Assembly: GCA_018302815.1 (NCBI GenBank)
Contig: JAGVZE010000019.1
Location: 1 to 64,000, forward strand
Origin: Candidatus Woesearchaeota archaeon
Lineage (GTDB): Archaea; Nanobdellota; Nanobdellia; Woesearchaeales; ARS49
Length of the DNA: 64,000 bases
Direction of reading: 5' to 3'
Part shown: positions 21,423-62,192 of the stretch, piece by piece
Numbering within the stretch: position 1 is the first letter of the stretch
Layout: the number at the start of each line of letters is the position of its first letter
The notes under the pieces: generated by a model
What the model was told of the DNA's origin: nothing
The model's database searches: none
Seen by the model: the letters and a program-made list of their open reading frames with translations, nothing else
Program-made: the position numbers and the translations under genes

Positions 21423-22351
21423 CGCCGGAACCTGCCTATCACAGATGACTTCTTATATTTTGACAACATCTGCTCCCAACCGCCAACAGAACCCTTCAAT
21501 GAACGAATCTTCTGCCGTTGAGATTCCATCTGATTATGATAATTAACCCTGCCGATAGAGCCGCCATAATACTCCTTTTGAGCATTAACCAACATGCGCT
21601 GAGCGACTTTAAGCTGCTCATGAATGAAACGCAACTTGTTTTTAGCGAACAAAACACGCCCTTCAAGATACGCCCACACTACGAGCAAAAACAAAACCGC
21701 GAGCGACATCAAAACACCCTTAAAATGGTCCTGAACATACGAAACGACATTCCTCCTCGCCAAACGAACAAGCGCGCGCTCACGAGCAGCCGCAAGCAAC
21801 GCCAAATCAAGCTCTTCACGCGCATCACCCACCAAAGATGGAACCTCCTCAAAACGTTCAACTTCAAACGCATTCTTGGCTTCTTCAAGCAAGAAATCAA
21901 CCCGTGAAAGATTCACAGTCTCATTCACCTGCTCGAGCTCATCTAAAAAGCCAACCAATGCATCATTAGCATCGAACGCGCTCTGCTTCTTATTAGCTAT
22001 CCACTGCGCCCGCTCAATCACAAACGAAAAATTCTGCCCAGGCCTCAAACCAGAACGGCTAGCTTCATCCAGCAAAGCAAAATATCGTTCAGCAAGAGGC
22101 CGGCCCTCATCCGTCTCATTAAGCGAAAGCGCGGTTTGAAAAAGCAAAACAGGATCCTTGCCCTTAAGCGCGCCATCCATCTGCAAAAGCGCATCCTCAA
22201 GCGACTCATACGGCAATCCCGCGCCCTTCAACTGCTCAACATCCAAACTCGCATTAAAGTACGCATCCTTTGCATCAGCATACACCGCGCCCTGAACGTT
22301 CATTGCCAATAACACCAGAAATGCCAGCCTAAAAAGAATTGAACGCCTCAC
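21419..22351 (-). CDS. Signal-peptide membrane protein with cytoplasmic helical tail
   Basis: 310 aa. A signal peptide (FRLAFLVLLAMNVQGAVYA) leads to an external helical domain of about 190 residues, one TM (about 212-232, GVLMSLAVLFLLVVWAYLEG) and a cytoplasmic coiled-coil-like tail. The tail motif AQKEYYGGSIGRVNYHNQME is the same pattern as two tail repeats of the giant protein upstream. GTG start inside GTGA overlapping that gene's stop: same operon, probably the same complex. Function unknown. Confidence 0.65.
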   Translation of the reverse strand: MRRSILFRLAFLVLLAMNVQGAVYADAKDAYFNASLDVEQLKGAGLPYESLEDALLQMDGALKGKDPVLLFQTALSLNETDEGRPLAERYFALLDEASRSGLRPGQNFSFVIERAQWIANKKQSAFDANDALVGFLDELEQVNETVNLSRVDFLLEEAKNAFEVERFEEVPSLVGDAREELDLALLAAARERALVRLARRNVVSYVQDHFKGVLMSLAVLFLLVVWAYLEGRVLFAKNKLRFIHEQLKVAQRMLVNAQKEYYGGSIGRVNYHNQMESQRQKIRSLKGSVGGWEQMLSKYKKSSVIGRFRR

Positions 22352-31300: not shown

Positions 31301-33183
31301 AGAGGCGCGAAATCAGCGCCGAATGCCGCATCATTTCCTAGCGTGGTTATTGTCACATTCACAACATACCGAACATTAGTGAAATTCGTCGTGCTGTTGA
31401 TGAAATCGGCAAAACCACTCGTCACGACAACCGTCGCGTTCCCCTCATTAATAGAACTCCCAGTATACGTCCCTATGCGAACATACTGATTAGAAGTCCA
31501 GTTGAACAAGTCTATTCCAAGCGGGTTCTCAATCGTACCGCCAGGAGCGGAACCTCCACATGCGAAAGGTCCTGCAATATCTGAATTATAACAATGCTCC
31601 AATATGAATGACAAATTGACCACCTTTGAACTTGTCACTCCAAGATTCGCAAGCGAAGTCAAGTTATAGCTCAAGTTAAGGAATGCCGCCAGATCTAATG
31701 CCTCAGTCACACCATTATTTCTTCGCGCAGCAAAGTATGCGCCGGATCCACCTGCCGCCCCATCATTTGCCTGAGTCGAAGTAAACGTATTGGTAATAGT
31801 GCCTGGTCCGTCACCAAATGGATCGAACACTCCACCATCAGGCGTTCCCTCATCAGGACTCGCATCACCAAAACCAGGGTCATCCGGCGTAAGCTCAAAT
31901 GTGTAAAGCTCGCCAGGAGTCAAGCCCGCAATGATAGTCGTCCAGTTGCCATCGCACGACCTTGAACTGAAGTTCCAATCATGGCACTTCATCAAAGACG
32001 TACCGCGTGCGATTGCAGTGACTGTGGCGCGCGTGAAATTCATACCTGTCGGGTCTATCGCGTACAACTCGTTCCACTTCCTCGCATTCGACATCGATTC
32101 AGGCAAATCATCCACATTCAACAATGGAGACTCATTGAGCGCGACACCTTCAAACGCGATTGACTTAATCGGACCTTTATCAAACTCGACATCCACATCC
32201 GCCCTATCAGGCAACTGAACACTTTGAACCGACCTAGACCTTGAATCGAAAAGCACGCTGCCCGAACCAGCCTTCACCTGAATCCTTGCGGCAACAGACC
32301 GCTTTGATGCGTCCACAATCCTTAAAATGCCAACGTCCTGTGGCTGAACAATCTCGGATATATTCGCTGCTTTCGACACATTCGTCGCATTAGATACGAC
32401 CACTTCCACAGGAACATCGTCTACTTCCACTGAAACAGACTGCGGTTCAAAAATGACCTCGCCAGACTCATTTACGACCACAACCTCACTTGATTCGTTC
32501 ACAAGCGATTCATTCACTACCGGCTCATCGGACAGGTTCTCCTCAATTACTTGCGGAACTTCAAGCGGAACCTCAACTGCAACTGGAGCGTCTTGGGCGA
32601 TAGGCGGTTCTACCGATACATTCACTTCTTCACCCGCAGGAACCGCGGACCTTAGGCTCTGCGACAAATCATCAAGAGCTTCTTCAACAAGCGGAGCCTG
32701 CGCGGGACTATCCACAGTCTCGATAACTTCAACAGAAGTTTGCTCAACAGGAACATAAACCTCCTCAAGTGGAATCACAACAGACGCAGGCGTATCACCA
32801 CTCGCGTTCTCTTGCGCACCCAACACAACATCACCAGAGAGGCTCTCGTCCGCTTGGGAGGTAGGAACATGATCAGTTTGTACTATCTGCTCTTGCACAG
32901 AAGACTCATTCTGTGCGTTCAATTCTGTAGAAATCTCGATTGCTGGAACAGACTCGTTCACAGGCTCGATTATTGCAGGTTCTGCAGAAACATTTTCCTG
33001 CAACAGAGCTTGATTTGATTCTACTGATTCATTCGCGATGTTCTGTAAACGCTGAGCCATCGCGACAAGCGCGTCGCCAACAAGCGGAGCTACCGCGGGA
33101 GTATCAACAGTTTCCACCACAGACACATCCGCGTACGCGGACATCACGAGCAGCAAAAGCAACACTATCGGAAGACGCCTCAT
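22348..33183 (-). CDS. Giant surface protein (3611 aa) with eight DUF11 repeats, poly-Gly stalk and cytoplasmic tail
   Basis: Signal peptide at residues 1-20. An acidic N-terminal region contains two related segments (VVETVDTPAVAPLV... and VIETVDSPAQAPLV...). Two copies of a roughly 240-residue domain follow at about 395-640 and 2155-2400 (DPGFGD(A/S)SPD, LEHC(Y/F)NSD(I/V)AGPF, APGGTIE(N/D)PLGIDLFNW). Eight DUF11 repeats of about 120 residues (SPDPVxRGxQLNYSI...NNTGDDxAFNVTV...LGNLS) sit in groups of four, two and two near 734-1215, 1717-1958 and 2490-2730. Ig-like P-N-V-T domains lie between them, and NxS/T sequons are very dense, implying N-glycosylation. A stretch of almost only Gly/Ala (about 3147-3182) precedes a juxtamembrane helical part, one TM (about 3456-3478) and a tail with two repeats (VQEKYF..., VQTAYF...). 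Likely a cell-surface fibre or adhesin, type I topology (inference). Middle gene of a three-gene operon. Confidence 0.9.
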   Translation of the reverse strand: MRRLPIVLLLLLVMSAYADVSVVETVDTPAVAPLVGDALVAMAQRLQNIANESVESNQALLQENVSAEPAIIEPVNESVPAIEISTELNAQNESSVQEQIVQTDHVPTSQADESLSGDVVLGAQENASGDTPASVVIPLEEVYVPVEQTSVEVIETVDSPAQAPLVEEALDDLSQSLRSAVPAGEEVNVSVEPPIAQDAPVAVEVPLEVPQVIEENLSDEPVVNESLVNESSEVVVVNESGEVIFEPQSVSVEVDDVPVEVVVSNATNVSKAANISEIVQPQDVGILRIVDASKRSVAARIQVKAGSGSVLFDSRSRSVQSVQLPDRADVDVEFDKGPIKSIAFEGVALNESPLLNVDDLPESMSNARKWNELYAIDPTGMNFTRATVTAIARGTSLMKCHDWNFSSRSCDGNWTTIIAGLTPGELYTFELTPDDPGFGDASPDEGTPDGGVFDPFGDGPGTITNTFTSTQANDGAAGGSGAYFAARRNNGVTEALDLAAFLNLSYNLTSLANLGVTSSKVVNLSFILEHCYNSDIAGPFACGGSAPGGTIENPLGIDLFNWTSNQYVRIGTYTGSSINEGNATVVVTSGFADFINSTTNFTNVRYVVNVTITTLGNDAAFGADFAPLTVSFDLTPPNVTNASAVPSVINQTQSINITANVTDDVAVGTVRANITFPNGSFTVQSMSLATGSIYSTIFTANGSLPIGLYNVTIIANDAAGNLNNTERTNFTVNAIFPTFLTTKIDSPDPVVKGQQLNYTISVNNTGNATAVNVTVIEIYPSGVAFHNSSPVPTIGNSTFELGNLSAGAFTTINITVNVSSQVTNGTLLNNSYDLTFVNTTGEVVTVQNSTLTTVLGFPTISTRKDDSPDPVPRGTQLVYQILVNNTGDDDAFNVTVVESYSSGVVFHDSSPAPSVGNDTFALGNISAGTSFLVNITVNVSSVISNGTLLNNSYNVTFANVSGQVITVTNSTLTTVLGSPVIINIKSDSPDPVLRGRQLNYSIFINNTGDDYAFNVTVVENYPLGVTFNNASPVPSSGNNVFALGNLSPNQSVLINITVNVSGSLSNGTVLNNSVNATFTNISGANTTVSDFELTTVQGEPNVTLEKSDSPDPVFRGTQLNYSILINNTGDDYAFNVTVLDVYPENVTFHNASPSPSSPNGTFSIGNLSSNASFVINITVNVSANVPNGSVLNNSVNATFANAFGEQSELNDSELTTVIQDIFNPLVFDVRPVENSVFNANVTIEIAANVTDDTAVDKVIANITFPNGTIQSVNLTLVSGTNKYNSSVVTQAVSGRYNVSFFANDTVGNVNSTETTFFRIAADDDIPQVEFVGPTPTNDTVTTNTSLTVNVSVIEQNLDVAFIEFNGSRTNFTAPVRNAQNTTTLTFITTGAAQTHTVPIPENVSHANLTVRFTISSGSFDVLVNGVSVGTISTSDTSPKNFTDIEELLIEGSNNVTYDPPVLTTGSILSSNITYVPLSNFFSINVTGLAEGVHNYFAGANDTFGNSVQTSNRTFIVDLTNPNISFVDPTDASGALLGRRNILVNVSVNDSNIGNITVRLFNSSGSSINEMVSNSSPFFVNFTGLADGLYFFNATAFDRVGHQNSTETRNVTIDATGPLVFDTRPIENSTFNHSVTIEISANVTDVSNVSVVFANVSFPNGTVQQVNLTQVVATDKYNASFTTPLLAGLFNVTFVANDSLGNVNSTVRTNFTVIALSPDILTIKQDSPDPVTKGALLNYTIILNNTGDDVAVNVSVVDNYPANVTFVSAAPSPISGNNTFSVGNLSVGAVFRINITVRVNDSLSNGSILNNFVNVTFANSSGQIAVSSAFELTTVLGFPELSVDKLDNPDPVVNGSLLVYAVEVNNTGDDDAFNVTVLEEYPSGVAFVSSSPLPVSANATFSVGNLSPNASFRVNITVNVSSAIVNGTLINNTVNVTFANFSGQTITVNVNESTTVVNTTDVIAPNVTILSPANATNVTINGSVNISANVSDDISISLVEARVTLPNGTVQVVPMSVSGSIYSVIFTNLTQKGTYNITVRAVDLSGNVNDSSQANFNRITVENRVLDVVDEDVNVVNFTESVISNVSGILTIGVSFANSSIINMTVFTHNSSSPFNVIRFANSTEDAGRFANVFAIDLSDLSLSVANVSATAVGNTLYKCLNFTFANVTCNDNYDFLQSLTAGQNYTFTLNATDPGFGDSSPDNGTPDAGEYVAFDEGFSSTVNTFTATQVNDAVYFAVRRSNGGGANADLEAYLNLSYNLSNLTVQGANASKMNNFTFVLEHCFNSDVAGPFTCGGAAPGGTIEDPLGIDLFNWSSGQYVRVGTYNGSSVNEGNASVFVEQGFADFVNSTTSFVNIRYAVNVTIVTLGNDAAFGADYAPLTVSFDLTPPNVTALIPVANSLFNTLTTIEVAANVTDDVAVGTVIANITFPNGTIQQLALSQVGLTQKYNASFTIPDLAGLYNITIVANDSVGNVNASERTNFTAVIVTPTILTSKIDTPDPVVRGNQLNYSILINNTGNATAVNVTVIETYPSQVVFHNSSPAPTSGNDTFFLGNLSANQFATINITVNVSANVSNGTILVNLYNVSFINSTNATLFVTNSTNTTVLGSPNVSVMKIDLPDPVFRGAQLFYQVLVNNTGDDDAFNVTLVEDYPAGVIFDSASPAPTSGNNTFALGNFSPNQSILINITMNVSSVLANWTLLNNTVNVSFANVSGQVLTVNATQQTTVISGAAPSILLVAPANASNTTSTSVNFSFNATDDSSLLLNCSLNINGTLNATNSTVQNDTVTNFTVVGFSQGLRQWNVFCLDSSSNTNTSENRSFTIDFTPPDFNSLLLSPNDSAGQDPGVQMNFTANVTDNFTSVDAVVLHILLNGTSLVNISMTPNGTDLFNASFTPIVAGNYSAFLTANDTLGNNAASNLTNFTVEFERTWDRSPTTLGAFSGPAGQNITLGTITVTNTGDFNLTFVFNSSFNDTFFNETNFTLVPGAVRLIEVNATVPSTVGVFFHNVTISASPNATPDARNVSFIINTVDDAFLFAEFLTIPASVTQGQVGVTITARVTNAGSRNASNVTLNITLPADWVLTSGTLSRDIGEMGPNESDGSTITVTILSNATTGLQNVSTIADGFNASNVSLSSINQTAGTTEQVNVLSAGGGGGGGGGGGGGAGGGAGAGGGGGGAGAGPSPGTFVKTYFEKAALFTNETINVVRGERIIFPLEVTNVYNSSFIRLVNLSVIGYLDKYVYWSPLYLSNIQYGDTKAFGVELSAPAYANRSSLNVTFIITSLLEGAGVEYRGGILYSAKFTKTVLEYKTVTLNIYEMSPIEAERLVTDVESLYAQVVALNYPTLRADVLKKLLEEAFVSEGFGEVGFLAGKLKLLLENELEAGRMIESVKEQIAQAKAKGLDVSETQAVLKLAVKAFEREDFDGSLKYSGEALNVQSIEVEQAFNLAYFIKDYWWAILLVIAVASPAVYAAYRRFAIVYIAHMLEVFTKEFISVQRLMREVQEKYFVKKEIVSPEYYKSMNQLERRLNKISSEMSRLRSARARIASKTVAFELETKERERIVQMIKKVQTAYFVERTMSRGRYFASVEELEKLLTEADAHIVMAKKRLKK

Positions 33184-34004: not shown

Positions 34005-34111
34005 GCCTCGGTAGTATAGTCCGGTCAAGTATTCGGCCCTTTCGCGGTCGCCGGCTTTCGTTGCCGGTCCAAAGCAAGGCTGAGACCCGGGTTCAAATCC
34101 CGGCCGGGGCA
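34005..34111 (+). tRNA. tRNA-Glu(UUC) with intron
   Basis: Acceptor GCCTCGG (34005-34011) pairs with CCGGGGC (34104-34110), A73 at 34111. The D loop AGTCCGGTCA is typical of archaeal Glu/Asp tRNAs. Anticodon stem CGGCC/GGCTG encloses CT-TTC-G, then an intron of about 32 nt with a CCGGC/GCCGG hairpin. T arm CCGGG-TTCAAAT-CCCGG. No encoded CCA. Confidence 0.88.
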
Positions 34112-36806: not shown

Positions 36807-38278
<1,472 letters not shown>

Positions 38279-38322
38279 TCTTTTTTTTCATCTCACGATG
38301 AAATCTGAGGAACAATCGAATA

Positions 38323-38346
38323 GCTTGTTTTATCCAATACTTCCTC
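38323..38346 (+). other. 16S rRNA processing stem, 3' strand
   Basis: Partner of 36578-36602; sits about 45 bases after the 16S 3' end and 37 bases before tRNA-Ala. Confidence 0.75.
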
Positions 38347-38383
38347 TCATAATCACAACGATGCCGTCAAACGCATCAATCTT

Positions 38384-38482
38384 GGGCGCATAGCTCAGAC
38401 CGGTAGAGCACCCGCTTTGCAAGCTGAGCTTATGGCTCTCCAAAAGAGCGGGGGGCCTCGGGTTCAAATCCCGATGCGTCCA
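38384..38482 (+). tRNA. tRNA-Ala(UGC) with intron, in the 16S-23S spacer
   Basis: Acceptor GGGCGCA (38384-38390) pairs with TGCGTCC (38475-38481), A73 at 38482. D arm GCTC/GAGC; anticodon stem CCCGC/GCGGG around TT-TGC-A; an intron of about 25 nt follows position 37 (gctgagcttatggctctcc inside). T arm TCGGG-TTCAAAT-CCCGA. tRNA-Ala in this spacer is the usual arrangement for euryarchaeal-type operons. Confidence 0.93.
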
Positions 38483-38593
38483 CTCAATACATCACAACTC
38501 ACGTTCATCAACAATTTGGTGAAGTCCATCCGCACCTGAACCATGCGGGTGGTAGGTAGAGAACAACGTTATCCCAACGTTAATGTTCATTGA

Positions 38594-38613
38594 AACCGTT
38601 CATAGTCGAACTC
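38594..38613 (+). other. 23S rRNA processing stem, 5' strand
   Basis: aaccgttcatagtcgaactc is a perfect 20-base complement of 41534-41553; together they bracket the 23S gene. Confidence 0.85.
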
Positions 38614-38647
38614 TGGTCTTACATCAAAAGAATGTAGGACTTAAAAA

Positions 38648-41528
38648 GTCAAAACACAACTCTATGAGGTGGAGGACTTGGCTTGAGACGCCGATGAAGG
38701 ACGTGGCTAACTGCGAAAAGCCTTGGCGATCCGTATGCAGGAATTGAACCGAGGATCTCCGAATCGGACTTCCGTCTAAAAACCGAAAGGTTAGGGAACC
38801 CAGGGAATTGAAACGTCTTAGTACCTGGAGGAAAAGAAATCAATTGAGATGCGGGTAGTAAGAGCGACTGAACTCCGCAAACGGCAAACCGAATCAGGCG
38901 ATGAAAGTCGTCTGGGATGTGGGGTTTTGGACCTTCTTTTAGGCCTCGCTCACAAACGTGAAGTGCGCTGGAACGCGCTGGGAAACAGGGTGACACCCCC
39001 GTAGCGAAAAATGAGCAAGCCGTGAAGGTATCCAGAGTACTGCTCCCCGGAAACGGAGCAGGAAATTGGGAGTCATCAACTTCCAACCGTAAATACGTCT
39101 CAAGACCGATAGCGTACAAGTACCGTGAGGGAACGTTGAAAAGAACCCTTGACAGGGTGTTAAAAGAGCCTGAAACCTCATAGACATCGAACGGCACGGA
39201 CCTACGGGTTTGTGTCGTACGTTTGGAATAACGTGCCAGGGAGTGCATTTGAGTGGCAAGGCTAACTGCAACAACAGGAAGCCGAAGCGAAAGCGACAAG
39301 CTCGCAAGCAATGAGGAGCGCGGTGTGAAAGCGCCGGGAGTCACTTGGATGCGACCCGAAACCAGTCGATCTAATCCAGGGCATGGTGAAGTGAGGGTAA
39401 AACCTTGTGGAAGCCAGAAGAGGTGCTGTGTGCAAGCGTTCTTCTGACTTTGGATTAGGGGTGAAAAGCCAATCGAGACTGGTGATAGCTGGTTCCTGCC
39501 AAAGTAGGCGTAAGTCTAGCCTCGAGCGAGACAGATGAGCTCGTAGAGCGACGGATTGGGGATTGAGGCATCGAAAGGTGTCGGTCCCTTGTCCAACTCC
39601 GAAGAACTCATCGTCGTAGACCTCGGGAGACGGGGTATATGCGTAAGGTGTATATCCGAAAGGGGAACAACCCTGACTATGGTTAAGGTCCCAAAGTAAT
39701 GATTAAGTGTGAACGGGCAAAGGGCATTTGCGCCCAGAGACAGCGGGGAGGTAGGCTTAGAAGCAGCCACCCTTTAAAAAGTGCGTAACAGCTTACCCGT
39801 CAAGAGCGCGAGTCCCTAAAATGGACGGGGCTAAATCATTCACCGATACCATAGACGACCCAAAAGGTCGTGGTAGGCAGGCGTATAGCTTGGACAGAAC
39901 TTTCTTCGAAAGGAGAGAGGGACCGAGCATTAATGAAAATCCTGGCGGTAGTAGGATCTTAGACGTGTGAGAATCACGTCCACTGTAAGGGCAAGGGTTC
40001 CTTGGCAATGTCGATCAGCCAAGGGTAAGTCAGTCCTAACTGTACACCCAACTGGTGTGAGTGAGGAAAGGGCATCCGGTTAATACTCCGGAACTATATA
40101 GGTATGCGTGGCAACACAAGCCTTGCTTCAGACGCTTTCGGCTAAGCGGGCGCAGACTGTCGTTTGCGCTAACATGGATACATCCAGGGAGTATCGTCAC
40201 GATGAGAACTGGATGAAACCATGGAATGGTTTCTCTTTGAGGAATCCCGCCAATGCCAAGAGCCCATGAAAATGGAACAAGGAAAAATCCTGTATAACTG
40301 TACCCAGAACCAGCACTGGTGCCCCTAGGTGAGAAGCCTAAAGTGTGAAGGACTAATGTAGTTGAGGGAACTCGGCATATTGGCCCCGTGACTTCGGTCT
40401 AAGGGGTCCCTGCAATCGTGCTCTTATGAGTGGCGATCGCAGGGGTCACTAACTCGGGGGATCCGACTGTTTACCAAAAACACAACTGGCTGCTAAGCTG
40501 TAAAGCCTTGTATAGCCGGTGACGTCTGCCCAGTGATGGTATCCGAAAACTCATTTCAATGGGTCTAAGGGCCATTTAACGGCGGGAGTAACTATAACTC
40601 TCTTAAGGTAGCGTAATGCCTTGTCATTTGATTGGTGACGTGCATGAAGGGCGTAACGAGATCCCCACTGTCCCCAACTGCAAGCCTCCGAACACTTCCT
40701 TCTGGTGGGAAGACCAGAGATCTCCAGTGGGAAGCGAAGACCCCGTGAAACTTTACTGTAGCTTGTAGCTGTGACGCGAGTGGCATTGTATAGCGTATGT
40801 GGTAGCTGTTTGAGGAGCAAGTCGTCAGGTTTGCTCTGAGGCACCGATGTAACACCACACCCTGCTGCTTGCGTCACTCACTTCGAAAGAAGAACACCTA
40901 CTGGCGGACAGTTCGGCTGGGGTGGCACGCCGATGAAAAGATATCATTGGCGCCCTAAGGTCGGCTCAGTCCGGTCAGAAATCGGACGTAGAGTGCAAGG
41001 GCAAAAGCCGGCCTGACTGGATCCCTGATAAGACCGGATCCAGAGGCGAAAGCCAGGCCTAGCGAACCCCCGTGTCCTCCTTGATGGGGGCCGGGTATGA
41101 CCGAAAAGTTACTCCGGGGGTAACAGAGTCGTCGCGCCCGAGAGTTCGCATCGACGGCGCGGATTGCTACATCGACGTCGGCTCTTCCTATCCTGGCCGT
41201 GCAGAAGCGGCCAAGGGTGAAGGGGTTCACTTGTTAAAAGGGATCGTTAGCTGGGTTCACAACGCTGTGAGGCAGTTGGTTTGATATCTACTGGAGATGT
41301 GCCATAGTACGAGAGGAACTGGCATTCGTCGCCACTGGTATACCGGTTGTCCGATAGGGCATCACGCCGGGCAGCTACGCGATAGACGGTAAGTTCTGAA
41401 AGCATCTAAGAATGAAACGTTCCTCGAAAAGACCCTTCTTCGGGCATGGCTAAAAGAGCCGTTTGATGGAGCTGGTGTGTAAGCGCGAAGGTAACGACGC
41501 GTTCAGCATGCAGCCCCCAACGCCCATA
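38648..41528 (+). rRNA. rrl: 23S ribosomal RNA
   Basis: Starts near aactctatgaggtggaggac and gacgccgatgaaggacgtgg, as archaeal 23S does, and contains the peptidyl-transferase and factor-binding blocks, for example ccgtgaaactttactgtagc (40742 on), taactataactctcttaagg (40587 on), cgatagggcatcacgccggg-type sequence and the sarcin-ricin loop catagtacgagaggaactgg (41304 on). The end is placed near 41528 from the closing processing stem. No large intron is apparent (length about 2880). No 5S gene follows. Confidence 0.93.
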
Positions 41529-41533
41529 CTTTT

Positions 41534-41553
41534 GAGTTCGACTATGAACGGTT
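41534..41553 (+). other. 23S rRNA processing stem, 3' strand
   Basis: gagttcgactatgaacggtt pairs perfectly with 38594-38613. Confidence 0.85.
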
Positions 41554-52707: not shown

Positions 52708-53640
52708 TTGCCCGTTATAGTGCTTGACGAACTTTTGAAAAGCTTCAACGCAGAAGACTACCCTGCGACAACAATCAAACTCATAGACCAATTAGAACAA
52801 GGATTCCTCGAAAGCTATACTGAAGAACCAGAACAAGTCAAAGGAATAGGCGCATGCTTCATAGACGCCCTCAAAACATACATCTCACAAGGCTACGTTG
52901 TTAAACTAAACAGACCACTTGAAGCCAAAAGCATATGCCAAACCGAACTCTTCCTACTCGGGCGCGAACTCATAGCGCAAAACCCATTCACCCCCTACGC
53001 GGACGCACTAATAGAAGCATCCATCGGCCTTGACTGCACACTCGAATTCACAGCCATTGATAAAAAAACCGTCGCAGTCATACGATACAACCAAGACAAA
53101 GAAAACATGAGCACACTGCTCACCGCACTTGAACACACAACGACAGGCATAACCCGAATCACAAACCCAATAGAAACTCTTAGCAGACGCGATTTTCGCA
53201 CGCTATGCAGAAGCCTGCACTCATTCATCAGAACGCACGAAGGACACACCGCCCGATATTACAACCTACGAGGAGCTGAAAACCTAGTCTCACAACTTCT
53301 GCTCGAACAATCAGTCTCCCAAGAAGAAGCAAACTGCTACCAACAAATAAGCAAACACTTCAAACTAATACCATTCGAAGAATTACATAAACTGCCAAGG
53401 GAACGACTAAAACACATAAAAAAAAGAATACGAGAACACGCACACGTACAACGAGGAGGACAACGCCTGCGAATAGCCGGAACATCGGAACTTCTAACAT
53501 TCATCAACGAAAAAGCAGACACGATATTCTCACGAGACGACCGCCCATCCCTTCTGATGTACTTCGAAGAATACATGACAGGAACAACATACTCAGAAAA
53601 TATCAAAGAATGGCTTGACTACGGATCCAGCTACGCCTGA
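52708..53640 (+). CDS. Hypothetical soluble protein
   Basis: 310 aa, mainly helical. Its N-terminal 100 residues (FNAEDYPATTIKLIDQLEQGFLESY) and middle (RDFRTLCRSLHSFIRTHEGHTARYYNLRGAENL) match nothing I know. TTG 52708 or GTG 52720; aataaataac at about 52690-52699 would favour GTG 52720. It overlaps the convergent ATPase gene by 10 bases. Confidence 0.55.
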   Translation: MPVIVLDELLKSFNAEDYPATTIKLIDQLEQGFLESYTEEPEQVKGIGACFIDALKTYISQGYVVKLNRPLEAKSICQTELFLLGRELIAQNPFTPYADALIEASIGLDCTLEFTAIDKKTVAVIRYNQDKENMSTLLTALEHTTTGITRITNPIETLSRRDFRTLCRSLHSFIRTHEGHTARYYNLRGAENLVSQLLLEQSVSQEEANCYQQISKHFKLIPFEELHKLPRERLKHIKKRIREHAHVQRGGQRLRIAGTSELLTFINEKADTIFSRDDRPSLLMYFEEYMTGTTYSENIKEWLDYGSSYA

Positions 53641-54479
53641 TTCTTGCTAACTCTAGAACTCCAAAAACCAGGAAGCTTAGTGCTTATCACACCCTCGAAC
53701 TCGGCATCAAAAACATAACAATGCGCCTTACGATGCTCTGAAGGGATTTTTTGCAATGATTCGTTCGCCTTCACGTACAAATCCTTCATAACCGAACGCT
53801 CCATCTTTTCTTGGAGAAGAGAACCTTCCTTAACTAAAATGGTGTCGCAAAGGTTAAGGACGTTCTTATCAATCATACCAGTGTTTTGAGTTATGAAAAT
53901 CAAAGTCAAGTCTTTATGACGCGCTATCGCTAAAAGCTCCCCTAAACCCTTGTTCTTTTTTGACATGCTATCACGGCTATTGAAAGAGACCGCACCTTCA
54001 TCAACAAGAACAACACCGCCGTTCTTGATAGTCTCCAAAGAATCAATTGATTGAATCCAGCTTGGCAAAACATCCTGCCTTACGCCCAACGCGAAACAAG
54101 GACGCTTCGATTTAGCGTGAATGTTCTCCATAAGTCGAAAACCAAGAACAGACTTACCTGAACCACGCTTTCCTGCAATCGCAAGAATCAAGCTCTCGTT
54201 CAACAAACGGTTAGCGAACGATTCCACCGCGCCGGATTTTGTCGAAGCAGCTTCCAATGCCACGTATGACGCCTCAACTTTAGGCTGGTCCTTCTTTATT
54301 TTATACGACTGATGAGCGGATTTGGCCGCGCCCTTACTTACCTTGAAAACTTGCGAGATAACCGTGAACAAGCCCACAATCAAGAACCAGACTGCCTTGA
54401 ATAAACTGACAATAAGCCAGCCCATGGCCTTGCCTATGCCAAGAAAGATTCTTGCGATTACTGACTTTTTACGAGCCAT
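53631..54479 (-). CDS. Membrane-anchored P-loop ATPase (Zot/HerA-like)
   Basis: 282 aa. A hydrophobic region of one or two helices (GKAMGWLIVSLFKAVWFLIVGLF) anchors it; then Walker A IAGKRGSGKSVLG, Walker B GGVVLVDEGAVSF and a LTLIFITQNTGMID strand with sensor Gln-Asn. This is the additional-strand P-loop layout of HerA/VirD4 and zonular-occludens-toxin-like ATPases. Third gene of the minus-strand run that starts at 56719; likely powers or gates something made by the two paralogous membrane proteins upstream (inference). Confidence 0.75.
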   Translation of the reverse strand: MARKKSVIARIFLGIGKAMGWLIVSLFKAVWFLIVGLFTVISQVFKVSKGAAKSAHQSYKIKKDQPKVEASYVALEAASTKSGAVESFANRLLNESLILAIAGKRGSGKSVLGFRLMENIHAKSKRPCFALGVRQDVLPSWIQSIDSLETIKNGGVVLVDEGAVSFNSRDSMSKKNKGLGELLAIARHKDLTLIFITQNTGMIDKNVLNLCDTILVKEGSLLQEKMERSVMKDLYVKANESLQKIPSEHRKAHCYVFDAEFEGVISTKLPGFWSSRVSKNQA

Positions 54480-54512
54480 AATATCACTTTACTGAAGAAG
54501 GGGTTAAAAAGG

Positions 54513-55628
54513 TTACTGAATGCTCTCAATAAGCTTCTCAGCCGCCCTAACATGAGCACGCAACTCTTTGAACTCGTCACGCAACGTCTTCACTTTCGCT
54601 TTTGTATCAGTCCAGAATTTGATAATAACTGCAGGAGCAGCAGTAGGCAAAGGCGCTTTTCCTAAAACATCAGACAATACATCCTGCCATGCCCCAACAA
54701 CATCATCCGTTTTATCTTCAACCTTCTTCTCCAAACCCGCCAACGCAGCCGGAATCTTAGCAGCATCCAAACTCTCAATCTCAGCCACAAGACCCTTCAA
54801 TGCCTTATCAAGATTCGCCATAACTGTCGGACCTTCACTCGCGACCTTTCTTGTAGCATCCAAGTCCTCTGACTTCACCGCAAACTCAAGCGCGACCAAA
54901 CGAGTGCCAACATGTTCGACGATTTTAACAGCATCAGAACCCCAAAAGAACCGCTTAAAACCACCCCACGAACCAGACTTTTGCGGAGCGCCGCCCTCTC
55001 CAAACATATCGAAGAGGTAGTAAAAGAACAGGAACAAGAAAACAACACTCGCAATACCTGCGAAGTCAGCGATGTAAGCGAAAACCTTGTCAGCTTCAGC
55101 ACCTTCTCTTAAGACGAACGCGGTGTTCGCGTACGCGCCGTACGTGTAAAAAAGAATGATACAGATGAGAGCTTTAAGACCTGCAGCGCCCTTCACGTCC
55201 TTAAGAGGAGAATCCTCATACCACAAGACATAGCCTGCAGCCAATAAAGGAATCAAAATGAGAACAGCGCTGAACATGCCACCGTACGAGACCATTATAG
55301 TCACTAAAAGCTCTGAAGGGACGACGATTACTGCGAGCAAAGCAAGAACGACTGATATGAGTATTATGGCGCGCTTCTGCCCCGTGAGCGGGCTCTTTGG
55401 CACAGTAGATGCGAACATCAAAGACGCATAAATCAACGCGAACACTATCAAAAACAACAAGAAACGAGTGAGAATGAGAAATTCGGAACTATCCCATCTA
55501 GCATTGCTCACGTCAAAAAACAGCCATTGGAACCAATCGAATATCGCCTGCATCACAGTCTTATTCTGCCCAGACTGCGAAGTACACGAAGTCAAGAATA
55601 ATAAGAAAAAAAGAAGACGCGGGTTCAT
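54513..55628 (-). CDS. Multi-TM protein with helical cytoplasmic domain (paralogue B)
   Basis: 371 aa from ATG 55628. The start MNPRLLFFLLFLTSCTSQSG is a lipoprotein-like signal. IFDWFQWLFFDVSN leads into about six TM helices and then a C-terminal domain of about 150 residues that is helical and coiled-coil-like. The N-terminal half is clearly homologous to the next gene (WLFFD, RFLLFLIVFALIYA, VVPSELLVTIMVSYGG against IIPMEVLVSISAAYGA). ATGA overlap with that gene. Confidence 0.65.
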   Translation of the reverse strand: MNPRLLFFLLFLTSCTSQSGQNKTVMQAIFDWFQWLFFDVSNARWDSSEFLILTRFLLFLIVFALIYASLMFASTVPKSPLTGQKRAIILISVVLALLAVIVVPSELLVTIMVSYGGMFSAVLILIPLLAAGYVLWYEDSPLKDVKGAAGLKALICIILFYTYGAYANTAFVLREGAEADKVFAYIADFAGIASVVFLFLFFYYLFDMFGEGGAPQKSGSWGGFKRFFWGSDAVKIVEHVGTRLVALEFAVKSEDLDATRKVASEGPTVMANLDKALKGLVAEIESLDAAKIPAALAGLEKKVEDKTDDVVGAWQDVLSDVLGKAPLPTAAPAVIIKFWTDTKAKVKTLRDEFKELRAHVRAAEKLIESIQ

Positions 55629-56719
55629 GGGGTTGCAGGTGCGGCTTGGGCTTGAGCAACCCATTCCTTGAGTTTTGGAACCAACACGATTGCATTATTC
55701 AAATCCTTACGCAACAGTGCCACACCAGTGTTCAATCTCGTCATCACTGCTGGACTAAATGCACCACCTGCCACTCCATTCGCAAGGGAAATCATCTTAT
55801 CACAATCGTTATCAGTATCGGTTAATACTTTTTTAACTTCCCCTAACTTCTTTTCCGCCACTTTCTTCACCGGCGAATCCTGAAGAACGACAAGCTCAGC
55901 TTCCAGTTGAGCATGTATAGTTTCTAAAACATGAACAACCTCTGATTTTACACTAGCTGCGTTTGCCAAAACCTGCGCAGGATTATTAGCTTTAATGCTA
56001 ACATCCAACTGCCCCAATAAGGTCTTAGCCCTGGCTTCATCAAACTTGGCAGTTTTAACACCACCAAATAGACTTTTCCACGCGCCAGCAGCGCCACCGG
56101 TTGCGACTTTTCCTTTGCCGTGAACGCTGACCGCAGAATACAAACTATAAAACCCATATAGCATGAACACTAAGCTTAACGTACTCACCAAACTGCTTAT
56201 CGTGCTGGCAATCGTACTTAACTCTGTACTCTTTCCTACTGTAAGGTCATACGCGTTCAAAACGTAGAAAAGCGCCAGACAAACAATAGCTTTCAAAGAA
56301 TAATTTGCCACCGTTTCTTCACTTAACTTAGTGAGTACTAGATAAGCAACTCCGACTGTTGGAACACCGAGCAGCAACAATGTGAAAAAGGCGCCATACG
56401 CCGCGCTGATGCTCACAAGAACCTCCATCGGTATTATCACAACAGAAATGAGTGATATCGCGATGGACAACATAGTACGTGCGTTCCCCGGAAAATGAGC
56501 CATTGGACCTATACTCGTGATTGCATATAATAGTGAGAACAGCACAATAAAGAGAAGCACTCTCAACACGAGAACTTGGTCATCAGCATTGCTTCCAAGA
56601 TCGAAAAACAGCCACTGCGCTTTTTCCTGAACGAAATCCAAAATCGGATTCGCTGCGACCGCAGGAATGCCTAGCATCAAAACCAGAGTCAATATTGAAA
56701 GTTGTCTTGTGTATTTCAT
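55625..56719 (-). CDS. Multi-TM protein with helical cytoplasmic domain (paralogue A)
   Basis: 364 aa from ATG 56719, preceded by aaaggtgatact. Signal-like start (LSILTLVLMLGIPAVAANP), QEKAQWLFFDLGS, about six TM helices, then a helical C-terminal half (VKTAKFDEARAKTLLGQLD...). First gene of the run 56719 to 53631: two paralogous membrane proteins and a membrane ATPase. Function unknown. Confidence 0.65.
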   Translation of the reverse strand: MKYTRQLSILTLVLMLGIPAVAANPILDFVQEKAQWLFFDLGSNADDQVLVLRVLLFIVLFSLLYAITSIGPMAHFPGNARTMLSIAISLISVVIIPMEVLVSISAAYGAFFTLLLLGVPTVGVAYLVLTKLSEETVANYSLKAIVCLALFYVLNAYDLTVGKSTELSTIASTISSLVSTLSLVFMLYGFYSLYSAVSVHGKGKVATGGAAGAWKSLFGGVKTAKFDEARAKTLLGQLDVSIKANNPAQVLANAASVKSEVVHVLETIHAQLEAELVVLQDSPVKKVAEKKLGEVKKVLTDTDNDCDKMISLANGVAGGAFSPAVMTRLNTGVALLRKDLNNAIVLVPKLKEWVAQAQAAPATP

Positions 56720-56814
56720 AGTATCACCTTTTCTGATTGTTTCAACGTGCAAGACATTAATAAAGTTTTCTAGATTAGTTTAGCGTTACTTCGCAGTAGT
56801 AAAATAATAGAAAG

Positions 56815-56845: not shown

Positions 56846-57361
56846 ATGGCCAGATATTTCGCAGCAGCAATTCTCAACGCGCCAGTAATCCTAGCAATCG
56901 CGACAACGTGCGCAGTAAAAGGATGTGGCGAATACAGAGCGTGTCAAAGAACACAGGCAACTGCGCCAACAACTACGCAAACAGCGCCATCAACCCCGCC
57001 AATCACCCTACCCTCTCTTGGCAGGATCGGAACAGAAGAACTCTACGCCGGACCCGCGCCATCATTTAAAATCCTCAAAGCAGACTTGACACCATACATC
57101 GCACAAACGTTCGAAAATGAAGCAACCCGCAGAAACTTCGCATTCACCCTTCTTCCCCAACTTTTGCCGCATTACACCCCAACTGTCCCAACGTTCGAAT
57201 GGAACCAGGAACGAGTCCAGCACATAGCGGATGCCGTCAATACCGCGCAGCCCACGGATCGAATCATAACCTCAAGCGAACTCGAAAACGCCCTTCAAGA
57301 GCTTCAAATGCGAGAGCGACCGAACCACGACAACGTCACCCAATACTTCGGCGAATTTTAG
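56846..57361 (+). CDS. Membrane/secreted protein with shared C-terminal module (1 of 4)
   Basis: 171 aa. Hydrophobic N-terminus (ILNAPVILAIATTCAVKGCG), a Thr/Pro linker (ATAPTTTQTAPSTPP), then a globular region ending in QHIADAVNTAQPTDRIITSSELENALQEL. That last part is the module (helix, short acidic loop, IT(S/R)xE(L/M)xxAL helix) also found at the C-termini of the proteins at 59403, 60548 and 60915. No named family. Confidence 0.6.
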   Translation: MARYFAAAILNAPVILAIATTCAVKGCGEYRACQRTQATAPTTTQTAPSTPPITLPSLGRIGTEELYAGPAPSFKILKADLTPYIAQTFENEATRRNFAFTLLPQLLPHYTPTVPTFEWNQERVQHIADAVNTAQPTDRIITSSELENALQELQMRERPNHDNVTQYFGEF

Positions 57362-57420
57362 CACTTCTGAGTGATTAAATATGGGAAAGGTTTAAATACC
57401 CTCCTGGGACGCCAAACATC

Positions 57421-59406
57421 ATGAGCAATCAGAATCGCGAACAACAACTCTACCACGAAGTCATGCGTCCCGCAGTGAATGACCTTCTCGAAGGATTCGA
57501 CAATGAAGGCAATCATGTGCCCGGCCTCAAGGAACTCGCAAGTTCAGAAAAACTCAACAAACGAGCAGCGCTCAAAGCATACACCACCGCTCTCGAACAG
57601 GCAACCACCCCGCAAGACATCTACCATCTTCTTACCCCTACCCCTCAATCTGAAGGAAACAAAAACAAGGGATTCACGTATGTTGTCCAGACCTATCTTG
57701 TCGATGATTCTTCACTCGCAAAAAAAGCACGTATCACCCGCGTAGACTACGAAAGCAGCGAAGAAGCGAAAATGCGCCACGATCGCGAACAGCTTGAAAA
57801 CCTCCCGAAGCCAGATGAAAACCTCGCAGTCATCATAAACCACCTCATCGACCGAATCACAGCGCACGATGAAATGCAGTCAGACCGCACCTACTTGGTT
57901 GGCAAGAAAAGAGACACTCTTGCCGCACACGAAGCGCGAAGACTCCTCACACAACTCAAACGCAAATTCCCAAGCGATTACAACTCACACCACGGAGAAC
58001 TCACATACCTCCAACAAATCCTTGACAAACCAAAACGAAACACGCCCAACCAACTCGAACACATCTACCAACTCGCCCGCAACGCACGCCCAGTCTATCT
58101 CCTTGCTATCGATGAATACATCGACATCATCGAAAAAGGCGAGAACACCGATCTCAAACTCATCCCTATCCTCGCACCGCTCCTTGGCGATGCGCACGCA
58201 ACACTCGATGAAATAAAAAAAGAACTGCTCAGCATCCAAGCGCAACACGGCAACCTGCGCCAAATGGGCAAGACACTCGATGACATACTCACAGTAGTTG
58301 AAGGCGCGAGCACAAGCCCTAAAGCAATCGAAGAGCTAAAACAGAAAGTCACATACATACGAACCGAACTCAACGCCATATTCTTGCACCTTGGCAAGCA
58401 AACACAACCTGAAACCAACTACCCGCTCAAAGACATCATAGCATACGCACCCCTTCTCGCAACCGCAGCAATAGAACTCAAAACAACCCATGATGACGCT
58501 CAGTTACAAATCGGACGACTAAACACCGCAGCAGGACTCACCGCAACACAACATGCGGACGAAATTGCAAAACTAAGCGGAAAAATCTCAGATAAAGACC
58601 AGACCATCGGAGAGACAAAAGCAAAGCTCGACCGAACAAAAGCGGATAATGATGATCTTGAACAAGAAAACAGAGCGTTTGATGACGCCGCTGAACGCCA
58701 GCAGGCCGCCCTTGAACGACTGGGCAGAGAAATCGCAGTGAAAGACGCAGAACTCGCACGCAGGGCGGATTATGACCCGATAAAAACAGAACGCGATCAA
58801 CGCGTAGGAGAAAACACACAACTCCAACACGCCAAAGCCGCAAGCGAAACTGCACTCACCGCAGCGCGCGACGAAACCGCAGCCCAACAAGCAAAAGCGC
58901 AAGCCGCAGAAACAGCAGCAGCACGAGCGCAAGGAGTACTCGCCGCATACCAAACAACAGAACAATCAAGAATAGATGCCGCGAGAGCACCGCTCCTGGT
59001 AGAAAACGCAACACTCGAAGGCAGAGTAAACCAACTCAACCAAGTTATCATAATCAAAGACGCTGAACTCACACGCAGATCCGATTACGACTCAATCAAA
59101 GCAGAACTTGGACAAAAACAGACCGAGCATCAAGCCCTCGCTGCAGAGCGAGCAGCCCAACAGGCACGAGCGGACGCAGCAGAAGCAGACGCCCAACGCA
59201 AACAAACGCACATCGACGGCGAGCAAGTACGAATAGACCAGGCAAAAGCGCCAATCGAAGCAGAACGCGACCAAGCAAGAGCAGACAAGGCACAATTAGA
59301 AACGCGAGTGGCAAACCTAACTGATCTCATCACACGCGCGAATGCGTTCTCAAAAGAATGCTCAGAAAAGTACGAAATTGAACTACGAAAACCCAAGGCA
59401 CCATGA
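57421..59406 (+). CDS. Large coiled-coil protein
   Basis: 661 aa, no membrane segment. Residues 1-350 are mixed helical with no known motif; from about 360 to 640 it is a long coiled coil rich in Ala, Glu, Gln and Lys, with an internal repeat (IAVKDAELARRADYDPIKTE and IIIKDAELTRRSDYDSIKAE). The stop overlaps the next start by 4 bases (ATGA), so it is translationally coupled to the membrane coiled-coil protein behind it. Possibly a cytoplasmic filament or scaffold (inference). Confidence 0.65.
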   Translation: MSNQNREQQLYHEVMRPAVNDLLEGFDNEGNHVPGLKELASSEKLNKRAALKAYTTALEQATTPQDIYHLLTPTPQSEGNKNKGFTYVVQTYLVDDSSLAKKARITRVDYESSEEAKMRHDREQLENLPKPDENLAVIINHLIDRITAHDEMQSDRTYLVGKKRDTLAAHEARRLLTQLKRKFPSDYNSHHGELTYLQQILDKPKRNTPNQLEHIYQLARNARPVYLLAIDEYIDIIEKGENTDLKLIPILAPLLGDAHATLDEIKKELLSIQAQHGNLRQMGKTLDDILTVVEGASTSPKAIEELKQKVTYIRTELNAIFLHLGKQTQPETNYPLKDIIAYAPLLATAAIELKTTHDDAQLQIGRLNTAAGLTATQHADEIAKLSGKISDKDQTIGETKAKLDRTKADNDDLEQENRAFDDAAERQQAALERLGREIAVKDAELARRADYDPIKTERDQRVGENTQLQHAKAASETALTAARDETAAQQAKAQAAETAAARAQGVLAAYQTTEQSRIDAARAPLLVENATLEGRVNQLNQVIIIKDAELTRRSDYDSIKAELGQKQTEHQALAAERAAQQARADAAEADAQRKQTHIDGEQVRIDQAKAPIEAERDQARADKAQLETRVANLTDLITRANAFSKECSEKYEIELRKPKAP

Positions 59407-60482
59407 CTGACGTACAACAAAATATTGAAAAAATAATCAACGCACCCATCCCCCCGCAAATAGCCAGCGGAACGGATCCGTACGTGATAAACCAAGAAGT
59501 AAACCTCTTCGTCACAAACCTCAAAGCCGCAGCAACCGCTGCACGCGGATTTTACTTAACTGAAAAACCCGGACTTGAACAACGCGCAACAGACGCGGAA
59601 AACGAACGAACCAAGTGGACAACAAAATTTCCAGGACAAACACCAGACGCAGCAAAAACAACATACGACAACGCACAAACAGAAGCCAACAAAGTACCAG
59701 GACTTGAACAACGCGCAACAGACGCGGAAAACGAACGAAACAAGTGGACAACAAAATTTCCAGGACAAACACCAGACGCTGCAAAAACAGCATACGACAA
59801 CGCACAAACAGAAGCCAACAAAGTACCAGGACTCCAAACACAACTCACAACAGCAAATGCTGCAAAAACTGCAGCAGAACAAAACCTAGCCACGTACACC
59901 GCCGACCACTCACACACAAACACAGAATACAACACACTCCAAACACAACTCACCGCAGCACTTGCAAACGGTTCAAACAAGCCGAACTGGCTCGCGCGCG
60001 GAACAGCAGCGCTACTTCTAGCAGGAACGATGTTCGGAATCGGACGATATTCAAAAAGCGATTCACCATCCATTCCAGACCCGATCCAGCAACCTGCGCC
60101 CCAAACAGCAACACCCACTCCCGAACCATACTTCACAACACAACAGTGGAGAGTCAAAGTCCAGCTCGACACACCTGCAGGCGACACCAATTGGTACAAT
60201 GAAACAAGCAGGGAAGCGCTTGGCCACGAATTCATGCGACGCGCCCTGCACTTTAGCCCCGCTATGCTTGAACAAAACAAGCCATCACTCATCATCCTCG
60301 ATGGCGTGACTGAACTTGAAGTCGCTCATTTATTCGAACGAGCGCAACGCGAAAGGAACACTACGTATACACCAAGACAAATAGAACAAATCATTCATAA
60401 AGCATCCGGCGACGATACTCTTTCACACGCAGAAATAACTGAACTGACACATAAACTAGATAGCAATCAGCCTCTCGAGTGA
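59403..60482 (+). CDS. Tandem-repeat coiled-coil membrane protein with shared C-terminal module (2 of 4)
   Basis: 359 aa. The N-terminal half holds two nearly identical 43-residue repeats (PGLEQRATDAENER(T/N)KW, then TTKFPGQTPDAAKT) and the start of a third, forming a coiled coil; then one TM (about residues 200-218, GTAALLLAGTMFGIGRY), and an outer region ending in the module TYTPRQIEQIIHKASGDDTL followed by SHAEITELTHKLD. The phrase YTPRQIE is identical in the kinase at 60915. Confidence 0.65.
   Translation: MTDVQQNIEKIINAPIPPQIASGTDPYVINQEVNLFVTNLKAAATAARGFYLTEKPGLEQRATDAENERTKWTTKFPGQTPDAAKTTYDNAQTEANKVPGLEQRATDAENERNKWTTKFPGQTPDAAKTAYDNAQTEANKVPGLQTQLTTANAAKTAAEQNLATYTADHSHTNTEYNTLQTQLTAALANGSNKPNWLARGTAALLLAGTMFGIGRYSKSDSPSIPDPIQQPAPQTATPTPEPYFTTQQWRVKVQLDTPAGDTNWYNETSREALGHEFMRRALHFSPAMLEQNKPSLIILDGVTELEVAHLFERAQRERNTTYTPRQIEQIIHKASGDDTLSHAEITELTHKLDSNQPLE
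59571..59828 (+). repeat. 129-bp tandem repeat inside the coiled-coil gene
   Basis: Two copies of a 129-base unit (59571-59699 and 59700-59828), each beginning ggacttgaacaacgcgcaac and differing at only a few bases; a third partial copy follows at 59829. 129 is a multiple of three, so repeat number can change without breaking the frame. Confidence 0.9.
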
Positions 60483-60547
60483 AACCTTATACCTTATATA
60501 AATTCTAAGCCATAGTTATATATCGTTTTAACTAGCGAACAGTGGTT

Positions 60548-60913
60548 ATGGGTAATGCGTTGTTTGAACTAGTTTGCGGCGGTGGAATCGCGTTAGCAGC
60601 AATAGCTACAGGAATATACAACCACCCGCGCGTCGCCATGACCAGCTATTCTGTGCAAACAGAACCAACTGAGTCTGCCGCATTTGAAAGCGAAGAAGTG
60701 AAAAACCAATTCGCAGCCATTACTGACGGCATATTGGAAAAAAAGTATTTCACCCATATTGGATATATCTCAGAAAGACGAGCATTCATCAAAAAAATAT
60801 TTGATGCAATCGACGACCCCGCATATTCAAGCAAAAACCTCATCACGCGGCAAGAAATGCAAAACGCGCTGGCGAACAGAGACAGCATAGAAAGGATAGT
60901 TCTTGGAAGATAA
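60548..60913 (+). CDS. Small membrane protein with shared C-terminal module (3 of 4)
   Basis: 121 aa from ATG 60548 (GTG 60542 possible; the TATA box gttatatatc at about 60516-60525 fits the ATG). One TM (LFELVCGGGIALAAIATGIY), a short linker, then the module RAFIKKIFDAIDDPAYSSKN and LITRQEMQNALANRD. The gene ends one base before the kinase ATG. Confidence 0.6.
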   Translation: MGNALFELVCGGGIALAAIATGIYNHPRVAMTSYSVQTEPTESAAFESEEVKNQFAAITDGILEKKYFTHIGYISERRAFIKKIFDAIDDPAYSSKNLITRQEMQNALANRDSIERIVLGR

Positions 60914-60914
60914 A

Positions 60915-62192
60915 ATGCACCCAACTTTTGGAAATTACAGAACCGAACAACTAATACGATCAGCACCACAGTCAAATGTTTACCAAGTAAGCGACGATAA
61001 AGGAAAACGACTCTTCCTCAAAACGGCATCAATTGAGAACATAGTGAACGAAGTGCGCATGATAGAGAAAGCCGACTCGCCACACGTGGTGAAACTAACC
61101 GATTACGACCTTGAAGCAGAACAGCCATATCTTGTTACCGAACACGCAGGACTGCAATTAAGCCTTCTAAAACTGCCAAGACCATATACTGAAGTCGAAA
61201 AAATAATGAACGAACTTTTCATCGCCCTTGAAGACATCCACCGAAAAGGAATAGTCCATGGCGATCTCAAGCCGGGAAACGTTCTTTTTGACGAAAAAGT
61301 CACGCTTTGCGATTTAGCAGGATCACACGACTCGCAAGTGGATAACACACTCACAAACACAGGCTCTTTGACATTCGGATACATACCGCCTGAAGTTGAA
61401 AAAGGACAACAGCCAACCACAAAATCAGACATGTACCAAGCAGGAATCATACTCTACGAACTTTGCAGCGGACACCAACTACGGCCTCACAGCCCGCCAA
61501 TGGATTCACTCGACGTGCCCCTGCAGGCAAAAAATCTCTTCAAAGAACTTATCGAGGCAAATCCAAAAAAACGACCTGACGCAGGACAAGCACGGCAAAA
61601 AATCAAAGAATCACTCCCTGAACCCGCGCCCAAACCAAACATCTACGAAGAATCGTTCCTCTCCACATATGAAGAAAACCAACAACTGCAAAAAACGATC
61701 AAACGACACGAAAAAAGATGGAAAATCGCCACCGTCGCAGGCTGCCTTGCAGTCGCAGTAGGCGTCATTTTCTATACTGGACCCGTAATAAAAAAGCACA
61801 TATTTGAACCAGCACAAGCAGAAGAACCCGCTCGAATATCATACTGGTTCCAACAATCAAACGACCACATAACCTTCCCAATGAACTTGGACGCTTCAGG
61901 AGGAAGCCAAAAAACAATACCAATAACGCCCGGAATCGCGCCGACAATAGAACAGCTAATAGAACGAGCAGAAGTCAACGACAAACAAGCCCAAAGCCCA
62001 ATTTTGCTTGACAATTCACGAAACATACGAAGACAAACTTACACTCCACGCCAAATCGAACGCGTACTCTACCAGCTACAAGATGAAAACGGAGTAATAA
62101 CGAGCGAACGGGTAAACAGAGCATTGCGCGCGGTTAGAACGACAAACCAAGGATACGACGAGATAATCGCGGCAATCACGTCAACCGATTAG
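60915..62192 (+). CDS. Membrane Ser/Thr protein kinase with shared C-terminal module (4 of 4)
   Basis: 425 aa from ATG 60915 (TTG 60903 also open). Eukaryotic-type kinase fold: KRLFLKTAS (Lys), NEVRMIEKA (helix-C Glu), HGDLKPGNVLF (catalytic loop, Asp present, HGD in place of HRD), CDLAGS (metal-binding Asp; DLA in place of DFG), GYIPPEVEKG (APE equivalent), SDMYQAGIILYEL (helix F Asp). It should be active. A TM (about 271-290) then leads to an outer part ending in the module TYTPRQIERVLYQLQDENGV then ITSERVNRALRAV. Presumably phosphorylates its operon partners or senses through them (inference). Confidence 0.82.
   Translation: MHPTFGNYRTEQLIRSAPQSNVYQVSDDKGKRLFLKTASIENIVNEVRMIEKADSPHVVKLTDYDLEAEQPYLVTEHAGLQLSLLKLPRPYTEVEKIMNELFIALEDIHRKGIVHGDLKPGNVLFDEKVTLCDLAGSHDSQVDNTLTNTGSLTFGYIPPEVEKGQQPTTKSDMYQAGIILYELCSGHQLRPHSPPMDSLDVPLQAKNLFKELIEANPKKRPDAGQARQKIKESLPEPAPKPNIYEESFLSTYEENQQLQKTIKRHEKRWKIATVAGCLAVAVGVIFYTGPVIKKHIFEPAQAEEPARISYWFQQSNDHITFPMNLDASGGSQKTIPITPGIAPTIEQLIERAEVNDKQAQSPILLDNSRNIRRQTYTPRQIERVLYQLQDENGVITSERVNRALRAVRTTNQGYDEIIAAITSTD

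Follow-up and report, generated by a model that had tools for sequence, protein, structure and literature searches.

A cluster of five genes (P1 to P5) at positions 56846–62192 of the Woesearchaeota DNA analysed here may represent a membrane signalling set that evolves fast and is specific to a subclade within a single Woesearchaeota family, with a receptor-type kinase and EF-hand-derived outer modules, a reading to which we give about even chances. Co-occurrence of these genes elsewhere had been set beforehand as the test on which such a set could fail, and kinase, transmembrane (TM)-module and coiled-coil-TM-module genes were found to recur at the same site in related genomes. The membrane-attached set with its own kinase proposed in the initial annotation is thus also found outside the window, by which we mean the whole 64,000-nucleotide stretch that was analysed; this stretch belongs to contig 22 of a genome 1.55 Mb in size.

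Layout of the locus and its flanks

The segment is filled by five plus-strand ORFs, and the flanking genes on both sides lie on the opposite strand. P1 (56846–57361, 171 aa) has an N-terminal TM helix or signal anchor and a C-terminal module at residues 117–154 (about 57194–57307). P2 (57421–59406, 661 aa) is soluble and without TM helix, with a helical N-terminal half and a long coiled coil towards the C-terminus; its only matches are weak and to coiled coils. It is coupled by ATGA to the 359-aa P3 (59403–60482), whose start overlaps the P2 stop, as had been noted from the sequence. P3 carries at its N-terminus a coiled coil in which a 43-aa unit is repeated in tandem with hardly any change (59567–59824); a TM helix at about residues 197–213 follows, and then an outer domain that has the module at its end. 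P4 (60542–60913, 123 aa; likelier start the ATG at 60548) comprises a TM helix followed by the module at residues 76–113 (about 60767–60880). P5 (60903–62192, 429 aa; likelier start the ATG at 60915) combines a Ser/Thr kinase domain, a short coiled coil, a TM helix at about residues 274–292 and an outer domain, at the end of which lies the module (62037–62135). A pattern search located a TATA-box-like promoter, GAAAGGTTTATAAA, ahead of P1 (56810–56823, plus strand, 0 mismatches) and a near-copy ahead of P2 (57385–57398, plus strand, 2 mismatches); the pattern occurs 4 times in the window where 1.06 matches would be expected, and the boxes before P1 and P2 were also detected as direct repeat D8. 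The designation "island" fits the gene content, but not the composition, as GC is unremarkable and flanking repeats were not found; a mobile-element reading of the locus, having neither flanking repeats nor a GC shift, was rejected.

The divergent neighbour on the minus strand (55625–56752) encodes a multi-TM protein that is TrbL/VirB6-like in layout only; no Pfam family was found for it, it has matches in 22 of 96 genomes, and its relatives mark the same site elsewhere. It is followed by a paralogue (54513–55664, minus strand; 27% identity, E 2.8e-25) and by a Zot-like P-loop ATPase (53631–54479, minus strand; Pfam Zot, PF05707, E 8.4e-6), the conserved anchor gene of the locus, for which a scan of genome_contigs returned 20 loci. 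This operon, which encodes the Zot-like ATPase together with paralogous TM/coiled-coil proteins (window 53631–56752; L011 2190–4969), stands beside Kae1 across the family, and its ATPase is present in other Woesearchaeota too. It looks like a putative secretion or assembly apparatus. Its ATPase gene matches the Zot-like/gpI assembly ATPases (PF05707), but is a neighbour on the opposite strand, and a possible functional tie to the island is hinted at by synteny only.

Islands at the same site in related genomes

Direct searches of 96–191 relatives found no sequence homologue of P1, P2 or P3; the N-terminal half of P2 had none in 191 relatives, and P2 had no match in genome_contigs. A search of viral_contigs with P5 found nothing, and P4 has no second copy in its own genome. 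Relatives were instead reached by walking from the conserved neighbours, namely Kae1, the Zot-like ATPase and the TrbL-like genes: relatives of the 55625–56752 gene led to genomes G012 and G008, and Kae1 as anchor with its adjoining DNA then led to G013, G017 and G023. These five other Woesearchaeota genomes, all of the same family, hold islands at the same site, which always begin divergently from a TM gene of the minus-strand operon. The islands encode coiled-coil-TM proteins and proteins with one TM helix and a helix-loop-helix at the C-terminus, and in three of them (G012, G013 and G023) a Ser/Thr kinase related to P5 was seen; the G008 and G017 contigs stop right after the last island gene. 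The G012 island comprises a kinase-TM gene plus three further single-TM genes whose C-terminal ends are similar; that of G008 includes a coiled coil-TM protein with two module-like domains. The proteins are extremely divergent between genera and gene content varies among the island genomes. In G013, a PIN-toxin/antitoxin-like pair sits between the kinase-like protein and the TM-EF gene.

The Kae1 proteins of the five other holders are 72–78% identical to that of the window. No island was present in those neighbourhoods that could be read in family members with lower Kae1 identity, nor in the more distant Zot-like ATPase neighbourhoods of genome_contigs, and none was seen beyond this family. 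Among the other kinase neighbourhoods examined, none resembled the island.

The kinase P5

The Ser/Thr kinase assigned to the last gene was confirmed (Pkinase, E 1.4e-27). P5 has the catalytic loop HGDLKPGN and the strand-3 lysine; its glycine loop is degenerate and its DFG motif reads DLA. Of the kinases it was compared with, the one from the G012 island matches P5 best (97.8 bits; no other kinase in the genome of P5 scores above 73.6), and the G012 and G023 island kinases are its nearest rows by path in a tree, with weak support. The kinase-like protein of the G013 island (L076 8365–9591) has HGDVRAGN and lacks the DFG motif, making it a probable pseudokinase by sequence, so that kinase activity is not kept in all islands. 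Identity of P5 with the defence kinase MAD6 was rejected, the NCBIfam score of 81 bits against a cut-off of 460 being a general kinase match.

The best solved kinase relative of P5 is StkP (E 1.2e-18). Like the receptor Ser/Thr kinases PknB and StkP, P5 has an N-terminal kinase domain, a juxtamembrane stretch, one TM helix and a C-terminal outer domain. Unlike them, it gave no match to PASTA repeats, although TM helix and outer domain are present, and a short EF-hand-like helix-loop-helix, common to the neighbouring membrane proteins, closes its outer domain. P5 also joins a kinase and a putative EF-hand-type module in one protein, as do the CDPKs with their calmodulin-like EF-hands. In CDPKs, kinase and EF-hands are both cytoplasmic with no TM helix between them, and the loops bind calcium. 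In P5, by contrast, a TM helix stands between kinase and module, so that the module would lie across the membrane from the kinase, and its loop is degenerate.

The C-terminal module and its family

The initial annotation held that four of the five proteins share one C-terminal module. Within the window, significant similarity is confined to two pairs: the modules of P1 and P4 are alike (BLASTP E 1e-5), as are those of P3 and P5 (E 3e-4), which have the exact octapeptide TYTPRQIE in common (at 60363 in P3), so that the reported identity of YTPRQIE in two genes holds. The link between the pairs is not significant in the window: a profile of one pair did not raise the other above shuffles, and hhalign between the pairs gave E 0.24. 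Support for a four-way family came from outside, from a motif enriched at island C-termini. The loop, described as shorter than that of an EF-hand, is so in P3 and P5 only, being longer (14–15 residues) in P1 and P4, and lengths range from about 9 to 15. The initial annotation had singled out the kinase as having its module on the other side of the TM helix, but the order TM then module applies equally to P1, P3 and P4; since it is the same in all four proteins, the modules are probably all on one outer face.

Of 12 membrane or secreted island proteins, 5 have the motif [IL][TS]xx[ED][LIMV], derived from the window only, within their C-terminal 70 aa, compared with 33 of 876 background ORFs (3.8%; binomial P 4.8e-5). 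The strict form I[TS]xxE[LMV] is found in 2 of the 12 and 4 of the 876 (P 0.0013), and P ranges from 3e-5 to 1e-3 depending on the form of the motif. A module model built from G008 and G012 ranked P3 first and P5 second among 279 ORFs of the window's own genome, at the correct position, and a broader model of all relatives ranked P5 and P1 first. P1 (FENEATRRNF...IITSSEL) aligns with a syntenic G012 protein (FEDEATKKDF...KITRAEL). As single-comparison E-values, hhalign gave 4e-4 for P1/P4 versus two G012 proteins and 8e-4 for all of the window's modules versus all those of relatives. Leave-one-genome-out tests with full, automatically aligned outer domains were mixed, placing P4 8th of 892 and G008 2nd, with the other window proteins and the G012, G013, G023 and G017 proteins in mid-list. 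Module profiles found no further genome convincingly among 191 relatives; a profile made without G008 misses G008 at E 0.01, which indicates that its sensitivity is poor. Weak profile matches from the order's other families were dismissed as chance after inspection. We infer common descent of the module across genera.

Relation to EF-hands and alternative readings

Two island proteins contain textbook EF-hand loops, DTDHNRTISDREL in G023 (together with DADFNGTVSPQEA) and DTDNDGVVTLKEI in G017 (together with DANKDGTVVGKEG), and these two account for half of the 4 matches to PROSITE PS00018 (a 12-residue loop with ligands at 1, 3, 5 and 12 and a Gly-type residue at 6) in 893 ORFs; no window protein matched. 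The G017 protein also matches Pfam EF-hand_5 (E 0.0026). EF-hand pairs are otherwise rare, occurring in 2 of 57 genomes at E 0.001 and in none over the cut-off. With textbook loops in two islands, the module most probably derives from an EF-hand and is degenerate in the window, and we lean towards such descent with moderate confidence. Weak matches of P4 to EF-hand-related families (Pfam NADPH_Ox, E 0.0042; parvalbumin, E 0.65) point the same way. With a generic EF-hand profile, the window modules did not rise above background. AF2 models are weak (mean pLDDT 49–53), with no significant match in the PDB; the module is modelled as helix, loop with a bridge or strand, and helix (local pLDDT about 53–76), and P4 as helix-helix-strand-helix at low confidence. 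Given the negative generic profile and the weak models, the EF-hand assignment leans more on synteny than on profile scores.

The ligand set is kept in none of the four window loops. In EF register, P5 reads LQDENGVITSER, one residue shorter than the G023 loop, P3 is two residues short, and P1 and P4 are two or three long; P5 comes nearest to the ligand set (D3, N5, G6), but has Leu at position 1 and Arg at 12. The EF-hand-like look of the loop is supported by canonical loops in relatives, whereas the calcium binding guessed at in the initial annotation is unlikely in the window species, as no loop retains the ligands. In a different Woesearchaeota family, a TM protein (L124 553–1815) combines a canonical EF loop, MDHNGRISISEL, with thrombospondin-type calcium repeats that come after it.

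The module might instead be a small helical domain of a general type that arrived at an ITxxEL helix cap by convergence, the EF-hand proteins of G017 and G023 being unrelated genes at the same variable site. We regard this as doubtful, albeit a serious contender: the negative generic profile, the mixed leave-out ranks, the non-significant similarity between the two pairs and the spread of loop lengths would all fit it, but convergence accounts poorly for the C-terminal enrichment, in island membrane proteins, of a motif taken from the window, for the first and second ranks of P3 and P5 with the G008/G012 model and for the weak EF-type matches of P4, and G023 has the same site, the same TM-then-module layout and a kinase partner. 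A reading of the canonical loops in the opposite direction would make P5 an extracytoplasmic calcium-sensor kinase in all holders, gated by a module that still binds calcium in the window. High calcium is expected at the outer face, and canonical loops occur in G023 and G017, but the EF ligands at 1, 3, 5 and 12 are present in no window loop, even that of P5, and this version seems to us very improbable.

The extreme divergence between genera and the differing gene content could also reflect a locus of conflict or surface variation, serving defence or encoding variable surface receptors, at a hot spot beside Kae1 and the Zot-like ATPase where membrane genes are gained and lost, with the kinase as a defence-type effector. 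The best, sub-threshold NCBIfam match of P5 to MAD6 and the PIN-toxin-like pair of G013 would suit such a locus; yet the MAD6 score, far under its cut-off, reflects general kinase similarity, and the absence of repeats, the unremarkable GC and a layout kept across genera make this distinctly unlikely.

Proposed working of the signalling set

Returning to a membrane signalling set with EF-hand-derived modules, we propose the following hypothetical scheme, for which we infer topology, clustering and substrates from the layout, and in which (i) P5 would act as a receptor-type Ser/Thr kinase with its catalytic domain inside, a coiled-coil stalk, one TM helix and an outer domain ending in the EF-hand-derived helix-loop-helix; (ii) P1, P3 and P4 would present related outer domains, each on its own TM anchor, while the cytoplasmic coiled coil of P3 probably pairs with that of P2, extending the assembly inside; (iii) the outer domains would bind one another or a common outside ligand, thereby clustering P5 with P1, P3 and P4; (iv) clustering would bring kinase domains together, leading to phosphorylation of targets in the cytoplasm, for instance P2, P3 or the neighbouring ATPase machine. 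An EF-hand that was ancestrally calcium-binding, as the canonical loops of relatives suggest, would have become a metal-free docking module in the window species. More speculatively, and in our view rather unlikely as a whole, the locus might encode a Woesearchaeota-specific machine in which a receptor kinase and its membrane partners are wired via extracytoplasmic EF-hand-type modules switched from calcium to docking and coupled to a Zot-like ATPase/TrbL-like surface apparatus, possibly for host-cell contact.

Prokaryotic membrane or secreted EF-hand proteins have a TM or signal anchor and then a C-terminal EF-hand, as do the G023 and G017 island proteins; in contrast, the window copies are without ligands and are accompanied by kinase and coiled-coil proteins. 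Receptor kinases and EF-hand membrane proteins are known kinds, but their combination via a common outer, degenerate EF-hand-like module in a conserved DPANN locus is undescribed as far as the literature searched shows, a full-text search having brought up no paper on EF-hands or kinases of this sort in Woesearchaeota. Signalling in small-genome DPANN archaea is almost uncharted, and a locus that is fixed in place across genera while its proteins have diverged nearly beyond recognition offers a way into the question of how such archaea perceive their environment or partners. It also illustrates that synteny can place orphan-looking genes where sequence search fails.

Other features of the window

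The window contains a 16S and 23S rRNA operon (36808–41539) with a 99-nt tRNA between the genes, and a further tRNA of 107 nt at 34005–34111; both tRNAs exceed the usual length, probably contain introns and were missed by ARAGORN. Three paralogous CheY-like receivers (8246–9144, 15456–15824 and 19459–20336), two of which are followed by a small paralogous gene (8614 and 19806, the latter weakly DUF7504), sit amid PAS/HAMP sensor genes and a KaiC-like gene in a dense signalling region. The largest ORF in the window by a wide margin (22348–33183) encodes a surface protein of 3611 aa that contains DUF11 repeats and Ig-like domains.
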